Part shown: one piece after another, positions 20,267 through 58,477 of the stretch | Layout of the letters: the number at the start of each line of letters is the position of its first letter | How positions within the stretch are numbered: position 1 is the stretch's first letter | Source: Rossellomorea aquimaris | Lineage (GTDB): Bacteria; Bacillota; Bacilli; Bacillales; Bacillaceae_B | NCBI RefSeq assembly: GCF_000935355.1 | Contig: NZ_JXZC01000001.1 | Location: 930,001 to 994,000 of the forward strand | Length of the DNA stretch: 64,000 nucleotides | Direction of reading: 5' to 3' | Notes under the pieces: model-generated | Seen by the model: the letters and a program-made list of their open reading frames with translations, nothing else | What the model was told of the DNA's origin: nothing | The model's database searches: none | Program-made: the position numbers and the translations under genes

Positions 20267-20502
20267 AATCATCCACCAAATATGTATTTTTTCTTCACTA
20301 TCCTATCATATCTCGACAGATATCGCTACATACTGAAATTGTTCTAAAAATGTATAAAATCATTTTGATAGGTGATAATGGAAGTAACAGCATCCTAACT
20401 GATGTTGTTGCCAACCGCGGAGAAGACTTACGATTCCCCATAAGTTCTTCCTCCGGTTTCTCCTCTCCCTTTGCCTTCTTTCCAGAAATGGATATAGAAG
20501 GA

Positions 20503-20523
20503 CCCTGCAGAATTTCTGCAGGG
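20503..20523. terminator. Hairpin after the stalk-domain gene
   Basis: 21-base palindrome with 10-bp arms (20503-20512, 20514-20523) starting a few bases after the minus-strand stop codon. On the plus strand it is followed by a run of T. Confidence 0.6.
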
Positions 20524-20527
20524 CTTT

Positions 20528-21937
20528 TTACATTTCTTCTTTGATTTCGATTGAGGTTTCTTTTTTCAACACTTTTACCTTAAACAATTTCTCAAACCAC
20601 TGAACATCCATATAATGGTAGCCCCCAATCGATTGGACAGGTTTCGTTAATAAGCCGTAATTTTCTTCATTGTAAATAAAATAATCTTCATTTACATAAA
20701 ATCTGAATGAATTTCCATTCATTGATGTAAAGAATACGTTGGGTTGAATCTCTTTGATATTCAGTCCAAGAGCCTTCACGGCTTGTGGGAATTGAATGTA
20801 CTCTTTCTGTTTATAAGAAATGTATGACAGGTTATGTGATTTCTTGTTGATGACCACTGGGTGATCGGCTTTAAATACCATCGGGACATTCTTTTTCCCT
20901 TTTGTATTTTCAGTGAAAAATGTAGAGTCAAAGCCTGTAACCGCTCCTACTGTCATATCTAATTTTAATGCATCGACGGATTTTGTCTGATCCTTCTCAA
21001 TTCTTCGCTTAAATTCATCCAATTGGAGGGATGTTAGTCCTTCCATTATTTCTTTATAAGCCCATGCGGATTTTGAAGTGAGCGGTTGTTTTTTTAAGCT
21101 GATGCCAACGATAAACTCTTTGAGCCAAACCTCTTCATCAGCGGTTTCATGCTGTTGGTAAAGTAAGCCGCCTTTCACTTCATTCAGGAGCTCCCCGTCA
21201 GCTGTATTCCTCACAATCAAATATGGAGATCGATAGGGCTTTATTTTGTTCGTGATGATGACCGTCACAAATCCTTTAAAGGAACTCAGGGAAGCCCCCC
21301 GGATACCTTCAATGTCAGTCGTGTCGTACAACATTCTCACAGTAGATGACTTTTTTTCCATCATCGTTTCTCTTGTCCAATATAAAGCGGATGGCTCCCC
21401 TCCACCACTGAAGAAATAGTAATCAATATAATTCATTTTTTTATGGCTGGCATATTTATATCCTGCTATCCATTTTCCAGTCCTGAAGTTCTTTTCCGTT
21501 ATATGAATATCTGTATTTATTGTAGTAACAGAAGAAAGTGTAGGATGCCACTCTTTTACTAACATTACTTCTGTTTCTAGTGGCTGTTCAAATGAATAGG
21601 AAATCGTGATTTCCTGAAGCTCATTGTGGAGATTGCTTAGTAGGAATTCCCCGTTTTGTTTGGTTAAACAATTTTCCCCTCTATCATTTACACATGTAAA
21701 ATCCATTGCACCATCCGGCCATTCAATTGTTATTTGTTTGGGAATCGTTGATAAAAATTGAATGGTTTGTGTAACAAGAAAATTTTTTTCCTTATGCGTA
21801 ATGAAATAAGACTGATTCACTTTTACAGTTCCGGACTCTTCGGCACTTTCCGTCGTAAATCCCATCCATTGAAAGAAAAGGATGCCAGAGCTGATCAGAA
21901 CCATAAGTAGACCAAATGTAAATAGAACGCGTTTCAT
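20528..21937 (-). CDS. Exported protein with C-terminal stalk (copper amine oxidase N-like) domain
   Basis: I do not recognise a named gene. 469 residues: one N-terminal membrane segment (about residues 5-25) leaves the rest outside the cell. The last 110 residues resemble the stalk/copper-amine-oxidase N-terminal-like domain found on many Firmicute surface proteins: an inverted pair of short strands around a conserved YISYKQKEYIQFPQAVKAL segment and a final YHYMDVQWFEKLF. The middle part has no motif I can name. It has no counterpart between rsmD (ylbH) and ylbG in the B. subtilis order. Confidence 0.7.
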   Translation of the reverse strand: MKRVLFTFGLLMVLISSGILFFQWMGFTTESAEESGTVKVNQSYFITHKEKNFLVTQTIQFLSTIPKQITIEWPDGAMDFTCVNDRGENCLTKQNGEFLLSNLHNELQEITISYSFEQPLETEVMLVKEWHPTLSSVTTINTDIHITEKNFRTGKWIAGYKYASHKKMNYIDYYFFSGGGEPSALYWTRETMMEKKSSTVRMLYDTTDIEGIRGASLSSFKGFVTVIITNKIKPYRSPYLIVRNTADGELLNEVKGGLLYQQHETADEEVWLKEFIVGISLKKQPLTSKSAWAYKEIMEGLTSLQLDEFKRRIEKDQTKSVDALKLDMTVGAVTGFDSTFFTENTKGKKNVPMVFKADHPVVINKKSHNLSYISYKQKEYIQFPQAVKALGLNIKEIQPNVFFTSMNGNSFRFYVNEDYFIYNEENYGLLTKPVQSIGGYHYMDVQWFEKLFKVKVLKKETSIEIKEEM

Positions 21938-55114: not shown

Positions 55115-56071
55115 TTATTTCCATTCCTTACGAATGTTCTCTGATTGGCGGATCATTCGTTGAATGAGATCCTTAACCGATGGGATATCATGGATTAAAC
55201 CCATCACTTGTCCAGCCCACGCAAACCCTTCGTCTATTTCCCCATCGTAAATGTATCGTTTATTGGCTTCACCGCTTATGTATGATTTTAATCCTTCATA
55301 TCCAGCGTCCGATGTTTCAGCATCCAGTATCTGCTTGGTCCATGTGTTGGAAATGGCTCTTGCCGGGGCCCCTAAAGATCGTTTGATGACTACTGTACCA
55401 CTCTCGTCTCCTTCAATCAAGGCACGCTTATAAACATCAGAAGCATGTACACATTCTTTTGTAGCAATAAACCTTGTACCCATCTCAACTCCTTCAGCAC
55501 CAAAGCTGAGGGCAGCCATTAACCCTCTACCGTCTCCAACACCTCCCGAAGCAATGACCGGAATAGAAACAGCATCAACGACCCTTGGAATCAAGACGAA
55601 TGTACCGATATCATCTTTCCCTAGATGGCCTCCCCCTTCCTGTCCGACCACCATAACGGCATCCGCACCTAGTTCTTCCGCTTTGATAGCCTGTCTTTTT
55701 GAGGAAACTAAAACAAGCTTAACAATGTTCTCCCCTTGTAGTTGTTGAAACAGGGGCGTCGGGTTTCCTCCTGTAACGGAAACGACCGGTACTTTCTCTT
55801 CAATGGCAACGTCCACAAATTCGCTAAAGGGGCGTCCATGTTGACCGATGGCAAAGTTTACTCCAAACGGTTTATCTGTTAACGACCTTACTTTTACGAT
55901 TTCTTCACGAAGCTGTTCAGGATTGTCCAGGGACATTGCAGTAATCTGGCCAAGTCCACCCGCATTCGACACTGCCGCTGCGAGTTCTGCATATGCCAGA
56001 TGAGCCAGGCCACCTTGTATAATTGGATATTGAATGTTTAATAACTCTGTTACCCGTGTTTTCCAATTCAA
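55115..56071 (-). CDS. Nitronate monooxygenase / NAD(P)H-dependent flavin oxidoreductase family
   Basis: 318 residues, FMN-binding TIM barrel of the 2-nitropropane dioxygenase family. IQYPIIQGGLAHLAYAELAAAVSNAGGLGQI at the N-terminus, then AVMVVGQEGGGHLG, IPVIASGGVGDGRGL and GAEGVEMGTRF, which hold the flavin phosphate. Related proteins also act as enoyl-ACP reductase (FabK), so the reaction is open. Start is the TTG at 56071 behind TGGAGGG. Not part of the B. subtilis speA-yktA gap as I know it. Confidence 0.87.
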   Translation of the reverse strand: MNWKTRVTELLNIQYPIIQGGLAHLAYAELAAAVSNAGGLGQITAMSLDNPEQLREEIVKVRSLTDKPFGVNFAIGQHGRPFSEFVDVAIEEKVPVVSVTGGNPTPLFQQLQGENIVKLVLVSSKRQAIKAEELGADAVMVVGQEGGGHLGKDDIGTFVLIPRVVDAVSIPVIASGGVGDGRGLMAALSFGAEGVEMGTRFIATKECVHASDVYKRALIEGDESGTVVIKRSLGAPARAISNTWTKQILDAETSDAGYEGLKSYISGEANKRYIYDGEIDEGFAWAGQVMGLIHDIPSVKDLIQRMIRQSENIRKEWK

Positions 56072-56202
56072 TTGAATCCCTCCATTCATTCATCTATTCT
56101 CGATGGAGTGCGTGAAATCCTTTTCTTGGTGGGAGCATAATTAAAAAGATACTTTGAACCTGATTTGTATGAATTACCGCGTTAAAATTGGAGTGTAGTG
56201 CA

Positions 56203-56344
56203 GATTTTTGGCTCATTCGAGTGAAACGTATGTTTCACTCGCCTTTCAGCTATGCTGAAAGGTCGTCCTGTGATAGAGAATCCCCCGCCCAAGCGAGCTT
56301 GGGCGGGGGATTCTCTATCACAGGACGGAAATGAGCCAAAAATC
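56203..56344. repeat. 142-bp element with perfect four-way-junction fold
   Basis: Closing stem P1: GATTTTTGGCTCATT (56203-56217) with 56330-56344, 15 bp. Inside are three hairpins: P2 CGAGTGAAAC (56218-56227) with 56232-56241, 10 bp; P3 CCTTTCAGC (56242-56250) with 56254-56262, 9 bp; P4 56264-56294 with 56297-56327, 31 bp with a 2-base loop and a CCCCCGCCC core. Only three junction bases are unpaired. It lies in the 489-base gap upstream of speA. It contains no coding frame. The remaining parts of the gap (56072-56202 and 56345-56560) are AT-rich and hold the promoters of the two flanking divergent genes. Confidence 0.93.
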
Positions 56345-56560
56345 ATGGGGATCTATTCTTTTGTTTTGTGCTATGAAATACAAAATAAACCCTGGTTAGG
56401 CATATGCCACTATGCAAAGATTTTCTTAAGTGCTATAATTCATTTGTTTGTTGAAATATCAAAAGAAAATGTATGAAATTGTGGTTATAATCCTATATAA
56501 TGATATCTTTAGCAAGTTGGTTAATTGTGTTATCAAGAATATAAAGAGGTGTTGAATGAA

Positions 56561-58030
56561 TTGTCTCAGAATGAAACGCCGTTGTTTACCGGCTTAATTG
56601 AACATAGTAAAAAAAATCCCGTCCAATTCCATATCCCAGGTCATAAAAAAGGGGCAGGTATGGATCCTGATTTTAAGGATTTCATCGGGGAGAATGCTCT
56701 TTCCATCGATTTGATTAACATCGGTCCTTTAGATGATTTACATCAGCCCAAGGGAATGATAAAAAAAGCTCAGGACCTTGCCGCCGAAGCATTTGGTGCC
56801 GATCATACATTCTTCTCAGTTCAAGGAACAAGTGGTGCCATTATGACAATGGTAATGAGTGTATGTGGACCTGGCGACAAGATCATTGTTCCTAGAAACG
56901 TCCATAAATCGGTTATGTCTGCAATTGTATTCTCAGGAGCTATTCCTATCTTTATCCACCCGGACATTGATGAGGACTTAGGTATCTCTCATGGAATCAC
57001 AACAGATGCTGTAGCCAAAGCATTGGACCAAAATCCCGATGCCAAGGGTGTTCTGGTCATAAATCCAACTTATTTTGGGATTTCTGCAGACCTTAAGAAG
57101 ATTGTAGAAATCTCCCATTCATATAATGTTCCAGTACTTGTGGATGAAGCTCATGGCGTTCATATACATTTCCATGACGAGCTACCCCTTTCAGCAATGC
57201 AGGCAGGTGCTGACCTAGCGGCTACCAGCGTTCACAAACTTGGTGGTTCTATGACTCAGAGCTCTGTCCTTAACATGAAAGAGGGACTTGTTTCATCGAA
57301 ACGGGTGCAAACCATTTTAAGTATGTTGACGACCACTTCGACTTCCTACTTATTACTGGCTTCCCTCGATGTTGCCAGAAAACGGCTGGCCACTGAAGGA
57401 CATGAGCTCATCACCAAGACGATTGAACTGTCGCAGGATATTAGAAGACAGATCAACGAAATTGACGATTTGTACTGTGTTGGTGAAGAGATCCTTGGAA
57501 CGAAAGCTACCTATGCCTATGATCCAACAAAGTTGATTGTGTCCGTGAAGGATTTAGGGATCAGTGGATTTGATGCTGAGAAGTGGCTACGGGAAGCTCA
57601 TAATATCGAGGTTGAGATGTCTGACCTTTATAATATCCTTTGCATCATCACACCTGGTGACACCGAGGTTGAGGGAAATCAATTGGTCATTGCTTTAAAA
57701 GAACTTGTGACAAGTCTTAAGAAACAGGGAGAAATGACACCTGTTAAAGTGATGCTTCCTGATATCCCGGTTCTCTCCATTACTCCCCGGGATGCGTTTT
57801 ATGCAGATACCGAGGTCATTCCAATTGATGAGTCTGTCGGAAGAACAATCGCTGAATTTATTATGGTCTACCCTCCAGGAATTCCGATTTTCATCCCTGG
57901 TGAAATCATCACACAGGAAAACATCAATTATATTAAAACCAATATAGAAGCAGGTCTGCCAGTACAAGGACCTGAAGATTATGATTTGCGTCACTTGAGA
58001 GTAATTAAAGAGCACAGAGCTATAAGATAA
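56561..58030 (+). CDS. speA: Arginine/lysine/ornithine decarboxylase family, SpeA
   Basis: PLP-dependent decarboxylase, 489 residues, very close in length to B. subtilis SpeA (arginine decarboxylase, agmatine and polyamine synthesis). FHIPGHKKGAGM near the start, FFSVQGTSGA (PLP phosphate), LVDEAHGVH (PLP-binding Asp, about 218) and SVHKLGGSMTQSS with the Schiff-base Lys (about 239). The start is the TTG at 56561, nine bases after GAGGTG. The encoded N-terminus MSQNETPL fits SpeA. The four-way-junction element is 217 bases upstream. Confidence 0.94.
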   Translation: MSQNETPLFTGLIEHSKKNPVQFHIPGHKKGAGMDPDFKDFIGENALSIDLINIGPLDDLHQPKGMIKKAQDLAAEAFGADHTFFSVQGTSGAIMTMVMSVCGPGDKIIVPRNVHKSVMSAIVFSGAIPIFIHPDIDEDLGISHGITTDAVAKALDQNPDAKGVLVINPTYFGISADLKKIVEISHSYNVPVLVDEAHGVHIHFHDELPLSAMQAGADLAATSVHKLGGSMTQSSVLNMKEGLVSSKRVQTILSMLTTTSTSYLLLASLDVARKRLATEGHELITKTIELSQDIRRQINEIDDLYCVGEEILGTKATYAYDPTKLIVSVKDLGISGFDAEKWLREAHNIEVEMSDLYNILCIITPGDTEVEGNQLVIALKELVTSLKKQGEMTPVKVMLPDIPVLSITPRDAFYADTEVIPIDESVGRTIAEFIMVYPPGIPIFIPGEIITQENINYIKTNIEAGLPVQGPEDYDLRHLRVIKEHRAIR

Positions 58031-58034
58031 ACAA

Positions 58035-58072
58035 AAAAGGATGAAGAAGGTCCCGCCCTTCTTCATCCTTTT
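58035..58072. terminator. Bidirectional terminator of speA and SR1
   Basis: Perfect 16-bp stem (58035-58050 with 58057-58072), 6-base loop. T-runs follow on both strands. Confidence 0.92.
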
Positions 58073-58125
58073 ATTTATTAGAACCCCTTTAAGACACTTT
58101 CACTCCCTGCTCCCCTTAGCAGGTA

Positions 58126-58245
58126 TCAGTCGTCTAATTCTTTGTCGTCGTTGCAGTCACAGCAGTTAGAGAATAAAACAGAAACCTTCTCATCCTCATA
58201 ATGCTCGATAGTGCCAAGACATGATTGACATACAATTGTTCCCAT
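58126..58245 (-). CDS. sr1P: GapA-binding peptide SR1P
   Basis: 39-residue peptide beginning MGTIVCQSCLGTIEHYEDEKVS and ending in NCCDCNDDKELDD. B. subtilis SR1P is also 39 residues, starts MGTIVCQ, has the same EDEKV segment and a second cysteine cluster, and binds GapA to stabilise its mRNA and to affect RNase J1. The ATG at 58245 follows AGGAGAGG; the longer frame to 58317 lies in the promoter region. Cysteine pairs CQSC and CCDC could bind zinc. Confidence 0.9.
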   Translation of the reverse strand: MGTIVCQSCLGTIEHYEDEKVSVLFSNCCDCNDDKELDD

Positions 58246-58273
58246 CTTTTTTCCTCTCCTTCGCGATGTTTTT

Positions 58274-58287
58274 TGTAAACGCTTTAT
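58274..58287. promoter_or_regulatory. Candidate cre-like site in SR1 leader
   Basis: TGTAAACGCTTTAT agrees with the CcpA consensus except for the last two positions. It falls just after the predicted SR1 start, where a bound repressor would block transcription. B. subtilis SR1 is repressed by sugar, mainly through CcpN. Confidence 0.45.
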
Positions 58288-58477
58288 CTTATCTGCTTCT
58301 ATAATAATATAACACATTTAAAATATCAAGCCTAAATTGTATAACATATTTAACTTTTCATTCTTTTAATTAACCATACTATTAAAGATTAAACTATATG
58401 TAAGTGTTTTCATTAACATGAACAGTTTTTAAAGAAATTCAAAGAGTTTTTGCACATTTTCGCAGGCGCAATGAAAA

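Follow-up and report, generated by a model that had tools for sequence, protein, structure and literature searches.

A four-armed element upstream of speA

A 142-base element upstream of a speA-like gene in Rossellomorea aquimaris pairs with itself so completely that it raises two questions: where such a structure came from, and what keeps its arms matched. A first-pass annotation of the window (the whole stretch of 64,000 nucleotides analysed here) had described a 15-bp closing stem and hairpins of 10, 9 and 31 bp without a mismatch, and had offered both a MITE-like origin and an RNA cloverleaf in the speA leader. Fold prediction reproduced this closed four-way junction at 56203-56344 (Table 1), with the annotated flanks GCA and ATG, one unpaired junction base in the minimum free energy structure of the + strand and a few more in the centroid. 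The folding energy is -110.9 kcal/mol on the + strand and -111.4 on the - strand, whereas shuffled sequences average -38.5 and -35.8; z is -18.9 and -19.1 respectively, and on neither strand did any of 200 shuffles match the native value. Because every arm is palindromic, folding alone is blind to which strand matters. No Rfam family reached its gathering score on the element; a lax setting returned seven matches (five miRNA hairpin models and two weak sRNAs), all far below threshold. We conclude that the element probably derives from an old MITE of ~190-195 bp, whose core became fixed and is kept paired by DNA template switching.

Table 1. Features at and around the four-armed element (window coordinates)
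Feature	Position	Strand	Basis
Divergent neighbour gene	55115..56089	-	ORF list; present at the site in relatives
Whole old insertion including two outer parts (approximate)	56186..56390	.	Alignment with relatives' empty sites; length difference between G013 and G032
Closing stem, 5' half (GATTTTTGGCTCATT)	56203..56217	+	Fold; sequence kept across sites and genera
Hairpin 1, 10-bp stem, 4-nt loop GTAT	56218..56241	+	Fold
Hairpin 2, 9-bp stem, 3-nt loop	56242..56262	+	Fold
Hairpin 3 (long arm), 31-bp perfect stem, 4-nt loop CGAG	56263..56328	+	Fold
Closing stem, 3' half (AATGAGCCAAAAATC)	56330..56344	+	Fold
Conserved block outside the element, probable speA promoter region (CACTATGCAAAGATTTTCTTAAGTGCTATAATTC)	56408..56441	+	Inferred from side-by-side sequences
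speA-like decarboxylase ORF, start codon chosen mechanically	56525..58030	+	ORF list

The core is repeated in its genome and widespread in the genus

Searching the genome and its relatives for further copies showed the core to be repeated in the former and widespread among the latter. Plain BLAST finds it in 27 of 61 genomes, its own included. A covariance model built from 24 copies detects it in 30 of 36 Rossellomorea genomes at E 0.001 or better, the remaining six having no match at that threshold, and in at least 69 of 397 genomes of the order, distributed over 18 of 135 genera; the order-wide count is a lower bound because eight candidates were scored per genome. In a sample of the phylum, 3 of 398 genomes matched at E 1e-8, all from that order, the genome studied here among them. 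Among the 80 of 110 matches listed by a pattern scan, core-like stretches also appear in Alkalihalobacillus macyae, Pseudalkalibacillus, Peribacillus and Bacillus. Viral contigs held no match to the exact pattern, and phages and plasmids held none to the window copy by blastn. A literature search, weak in that it covered subscription journals thinly, yielded no recognisable description of this element family. Four loci of genus g21 (L251, L257, L260 and L261) form a sub-family with a closing stem like TTTTTGACACATT/AAATGGGTCAAAAA and CCTTTAAGC as hairpin 2; they have a similar right flank (GAACCGCTCCA) and may be one orthologous site.

The core lies within a MITE that has transposed in other genera

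Copies in A. macyae and other Bacillales have the core inside an element of ~195 bp whose outer parts end in GGCTATGTTA...TAACATAGCC. Allowing up to two mismatches each, these ends bracket 35 distinct copies, and a perfect target duplication of 8 bp is present in 19 of 34 copies, compared with a shuffled mean of 0.64; duplications of 5, 6, 7, 9 and 10 bp were each found in one of the 34 copies or in none. The duplicated sequence is varied and AT-rich. Elements come in a long form of 190-197 bp and a collapsed form of 106-107 bp, with some in between, and both forms are without coding capacity and too short for a transposase. A. macyae carries many copies of the family, with target duplications present. 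The family, with its ends GGCTATGTTA and 8-bp duplication, is a MITE that has transposed in Bacillales outside Rossellomorea; as no transposase with the family ends was found, this assignment is made on the terminal inverted repeats and the duplication alone.

In the genome studied here, the closing-stem end TTTGGCTCATT was seen only in the elements and at two single sites, and neither there nor in A. macyae, searched for the outer end, was an autonomous partner found. None of 420 loci showed an IS-sized pair of ends with a duplication, and a 37-base end used as query against plasmids returned nine records, all at E 0.4 or worse, and no partner. Among the Pfam families, IS1595 gave two matches below cut-off in seven genomes, both in G136; in ten genomes, IS6/IS240 rose above its cut-off in G404 only and ISL3 matched in G136 and G079. 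A. macyae had none of the three, and the family ends were absent from the ten IS1595, IS6 and ISL3 loci checked.

Like the closest MITEs on record, the family is short, gene-free and intergenic, has terminal inverted repeats and an 8-bp target duplication, and reaches many copies in some genomes. It differs in that its four-way palindromic core outlasts the decayed ends and flips in place, and in that the partner transposase was not found. The annotation had likened the element to bcr1 of the Bacillus cereus group. This comparison holds for size and general kind, since the published descriptions available to us present bcr1-bcr3 as short, intergenic, MITE-like repeats (PMC6542083, PMC3446304), and breaks down on the type of duplication: the mobility motif given there for bcr elements is TTTAT (PMC6542083), whereas the present family has 8-bp duplications and ends GGCTATGTTA, as judged by description and not by sequence.

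Rossellomorea copies are relics at fixed sites

We picked 100 copies from the matches listed (97 from Rossellomorea and three from another genus), with 2-kb flanks where the contig allowed. Grouping by both flanks gave 24 groups, the largest comprising 18 species; once both orientations of one site are merged, about 16 sites remain in the genus, eight of them common to 5-18 species. The most widespread lies between tig and clpX (18 species), followed by pxpB/MFS (15 species); the names of these and the other neighbour genes, assigned from the protein sequences, are presumptive. The neighbours are arranged divergently, in tandem or convergently, and with kinds and directions so mixed, cis-regulation of one kind of gene was rejected.

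At speA, the element motif is absent from 17 of 30 loci (the 30 examined out of 36). The filled site of G013 exceeds the empty one of G032 by 198 bp, which corresponds to a MITE of ~190 bp plus its duplication; the borders of the insertion are uncertain by several bases, and AAAAT-type bases are repeated at its edges. With up to one mismatch and within 60 nt, GGCTATGTTA was found at none of 194 Rossellomorea ends, those of the window copy included, so that the window copy is a relic with decayed ends. The 15-base ends that the annotation had read as transposon repeats belong to an inner core, whose closing stem they form; the MITE-like label of the annotation is therefore right for the family, as seen in A. 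macyae and other Bacillales, and wrong for the window copy's own ends. Had the sequence been unique, present at one site in all relatives and free of compensatory change, the annotation would have given up mobility; that objection falls away, since the core is repeated, many speA loci lack the element, and compensatory change is abundant. The Rossellomorea copies nevertheless look immobile, with fixed, shared sites and ends that can no longer be recognised.

Shortened and decayed copies are common among those compared. One decayed copy (group 7: L092, L099, L130, L139 and L145) is common to five species and keeps the 9-bp base of the long arm and part of hairpin 2, its closing stem and hairpin 1 being largely broken. 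Runs of N occur at the arm tops in the G014 and A. macyae copies. Contigs of G007 break inside the long arm (L205 at the start of C5, L176 at the end of C4), and one starts with adapter-like sequence. The palindrome thus seems to disturb sequencing or assembly, and faulty assembly may account for some of the shortened copies in draft genomes, though not for all, because shortened copies are also present in the single-contig genomes G016 and G003. Two loci that lack the element (L204 in G012 and L209 in G020) have a different GC-rich, partly palindromic, repeat-like stretch upstream of speA, GACTCCTGCGGGAAA... and TCGAGCCTCCTCGGCG... respectively.

Paired changes accumulate with little sign of selection on RNA

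The long arm varies in sequence by site and species, and intact copies stay paired. In hairpin 1, GAAAC..GTTTC is mostly retained between sites, and the outer pairs vary with compensation. Across seven close species pairs (20 comparisons, 1324 base pairs), we counted 56 two-sided changes that still pair, against 5.6 expected, and 85 one-sided changes, against 264 expected, with 8 pairs changed otherwise; the expectation assumes that the two sides change independently at the outer-flank rate, and ignores phylogeny and local rate. One-sided differences still outnumber two-sided ones in these 20 comparisons. Over 278 comparisons with flanks at least 80% identical, which are not independent of one another, there were 1137 two-sided changes, 405 to GU, 442 to AC and 962 others.

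Such covariation could arise from selection on a structured RNA, be it an sRNA or a cis-acting part of the speA leader, and a possible RNase III substrate. The fold is indeed very stable and paired changes are abundant, and transcription probably covers the copies that follow tig and a lipoprotein gene. The two kinds of mispair bear directly on this idea, because RNA-level selection would tolerate GU and not AC. In the long arm, GU and AC are equally frequent (19 and 20 in 1612 pairs from 57 copies, which are the 100 fetched minus 40 that the pattern did not parse and three short ones), so that evidence for selection at the RNA level is slight; GU makes up 3 of 37 and 13 of 83 predicted pairs in two known RNAs of the window. 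Near equality extends to 1x1 mismatches over all stems in the 74 fetched copies that are at least 135 nt long and lack N (GU 18, AC 21, other 28; 4482 Watson-Crick pairs). When 61 of these 74 copies are divided by gene context, tandem and probably transcribed sites have 5 GU and 6 AC (22 copies), divergent sites 8 and 8, and the convergent site 0 and 1. The small stems are uneven, with 4 GU and 16 AC in the closing stem, 5 and 2 in hairpin 1, and 4 and 0 in hairpin 2. The numbers behind this are small and include inherited changes; taken as an RNA signal, the bias in the closing stem would point to the - strand.

The speA locus itself offers the RNA interpretation little. The downstream ORF is presumably speA-like, as in the first-pass annotation, and its divergent neighbour presumably nitronate monooxygenase-like. 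The block at 56408-56441 contains TATAAT at 56434-56439, preceded by TGC, and is retained in relatives with and without the element, being changed in more distant species; as it is kept regardless of the element, the speA promoter is probably downstream of the element. The best + strand promoter match (56473-56501, 10/12) is also downstream; a weaker one (56112-56141, 9/12) lies upstream and counts in favour of an RNA. No terminator-like site was found at speA, and we dropped a terminator role there. Neither this layout nor the lack of strand bias among long-arm mispairs supports the RNA cloverleaf that the annotation had placed in the speA leader. Considering also that the core flips in place and occurs in divergent, tandem and convergent gene contexts, we regard a structured RNA as improbable. 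Selection on a DNA cruciform is another source from which the paired changes could come.

Two recognisable RNAs lie elsewhere in the window. An SR1 sRNA match (Rfam, 58 bits) at 58033-58297 on the - strand directly follows speA, with a small ORF at 58126-58317, a neighbourhood presumably as in Bacillus subtilis; a ylbH leader match (Rfam, 111 bits) at 20415-20533, also on the - strand, is an ordinary known leader.

Loops and whole cores are inverted in place

Multiple compensatory changes, stem extension and inverted loops have been described as footprints of template switching (PMC8794818), and all three are found in copies of the core. Loops were compared between orthologs with flanks at least 86% identical, using 73 copies with exactly three hairpins, which gave 178 comparisons per hairpin that are not independent. 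Exact reverse complements occurred in 6 of these for hairpin 1, 11 for hairpin 2 and 32 for the long arm; the loops were identical in 46, 55 and 57, of other sequence in 77, 83 and 83, and of differing length in 49, 29 and 6. In G020 and G001 (L132/L160), for example, the same long arm carries the loop CGAG in one and CTCG in the other. Stem extension is seen in the speA copy of G022 (L046/L166/L196), where hairpin 1 has been lengthened by a copy of the closing stem that replaces the first half of hairpin 2, and a fold-back extension of the same kind is present in Bacillus sp. CECT 9360 (L320). Carried to completion, such an extension would yield the collapsed palindrome at speA in G014 and the 106-bp MITEs.

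Inversion also operates on the whole core. At four sites the segment enclosed by the closing stems runs in the opposite direction in some copies, while the outer flanks keep their order. The ABC-F/DUF1232 site and the site between genes for 575 and 179 amino acids have full-length copies in both orientations; at the speA and YkuS/subtilase sites the flipped copies have lost length or contain N, and the near left flank of the latter has diverged. Between G031 and G006, orientation differs at three of the six sites fetched in both, the G006 copies there being shortened. Among fetched copies, orientation is constant at tig/clpX and pxpB/MFS. A probable in-place flip is also seen at L258/L262 (G264 and G305, of a different genus), where the same outer flanks (AAGATTTCTAACTCTGACAAAGATTTTGACTGATC) enclose cores of opposite orientation.

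Two other processes might turn the core. A site-specific recombinase acting on the 15-bp repeats would make it an active inversion switch, as might be suspected from the four flipped sites, of which three differ between two close species. However, the inner loops are inverted as well, and since the arms around them are unrelated in sequence, a single recombinase would not suffice; moreover, orientation is invariant at the two most widespread sites; we consider such a switch very unlikely. Alternatively, the orientations might be independent insertions of a MITE that is still active, in keeping with the many copies and target duplications in A. macyae. This is the least credible explanation, for at the flipped sites the outer flanks keep their order and the inversion is confined to what the closing stems enclose, and none of the Rossellomorea ends is recognisable.

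Behind the footprints we infer template switching in a core that has lost its mobility. The four-armed core would provide a DNA cruciform or hairpin substrate, and during replication the nascent strand would switch template within or between its inverted repeats. A single switch could then copy a change to the opposite arm, invert a loop, extend a stem by fold-back or flip the whole segment, and the long arm would be kept paired without RNA-level selection. The account given of rRNA and microRNA hairpins (Monttinen and Loytynoja 2022, PMC8794818) includes the same paired changes, inverted loops and stem extension; the present case differs in being a non-coding bacterial mobile-element family with little sign of RNA selection, and in its scale, with a 112-bp spacer inverted as well as loops of 3-4 nt. 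Spacer inversion and arm homogenisation are both named for template switching in yeast (PMC8604942), where the accessible text concerns coding genes.

The small stems change slowly

Template switching in its unbiased form leaves one feature over. Within five ortholog groups of near full-length copies, to which these figures are confined, mean pairwise identity is 0.85-1.00 in the closing stem, hairpin 1 and hairpin 2, 0.72-0.81 in the long arm, 0.39-1.00 in the loops and 0.41-0.86 in the outer 60 nt; in hairpin 2, the stem reaches 0.87-0.98 and the loop 0.39-0.89. Unbiased arm-to-arm correction should not slow change, so the conservation of stem sequence is not accounted for by such correction alone, and the small stems may be recognised by a protein. 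Their slow change weakly suggests a sequence-specific one, which could be a host factor or the transposase of the old element. The contrast between stem and flank is weaker in groups 0 and 4, where identity in the 5' outer flank (0.73-0.86) approaches that of the closing stem (0.85 and 0.91).

One could therefore suppose a host-domesticated DNA site, maintained by selection, in which a protein binds the extruded cruciform or single-stranded hairpins through the closing stem and hairpins 1 and 2, and the long arm serves as a structural spacer. The three stems are conserved across sites and genera, most loops and the outer flanks less so, and the long arm is mainly kept paired; the tig/clpX copy is retained in 18 species, and flips are tolerated at four sites. 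On the other hand, there is no candidate protein, copy number and sites vary, six genomes of the genus show no core at the threshold, shortened and decayed copies are common, and the flanks of groups 0 and 4 blur the contrast on which the idea draws. We see domestication as possible, with the odds leaning against it. A combined reading, which we offer tentatively and think rather unlikely, is that the core lost its mobility and persists as a DNA structure under selection, with a protein reading the cruciform or hairpin sites and template switching rewriting the long arm, the loops and the orientation.

Implications

How long the arms of a perfect palindrome stay matched has been asked for a long time, mostly of RNA genes, in which selection for pairing obscures the answer. 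Here, about 16 sites in one genus amount to a record, left by nature, that could serve to measure how fast and by what rules template switching acts in a bacterium, and they caution that pairing covariation by itself is no proof of a functional RNA. If the selected-structure reading is true, the structure would be inherited and much of the sequence would not. We regard these elements as documenting, with unusual clarity, how DNA copying maintains a palindrome.
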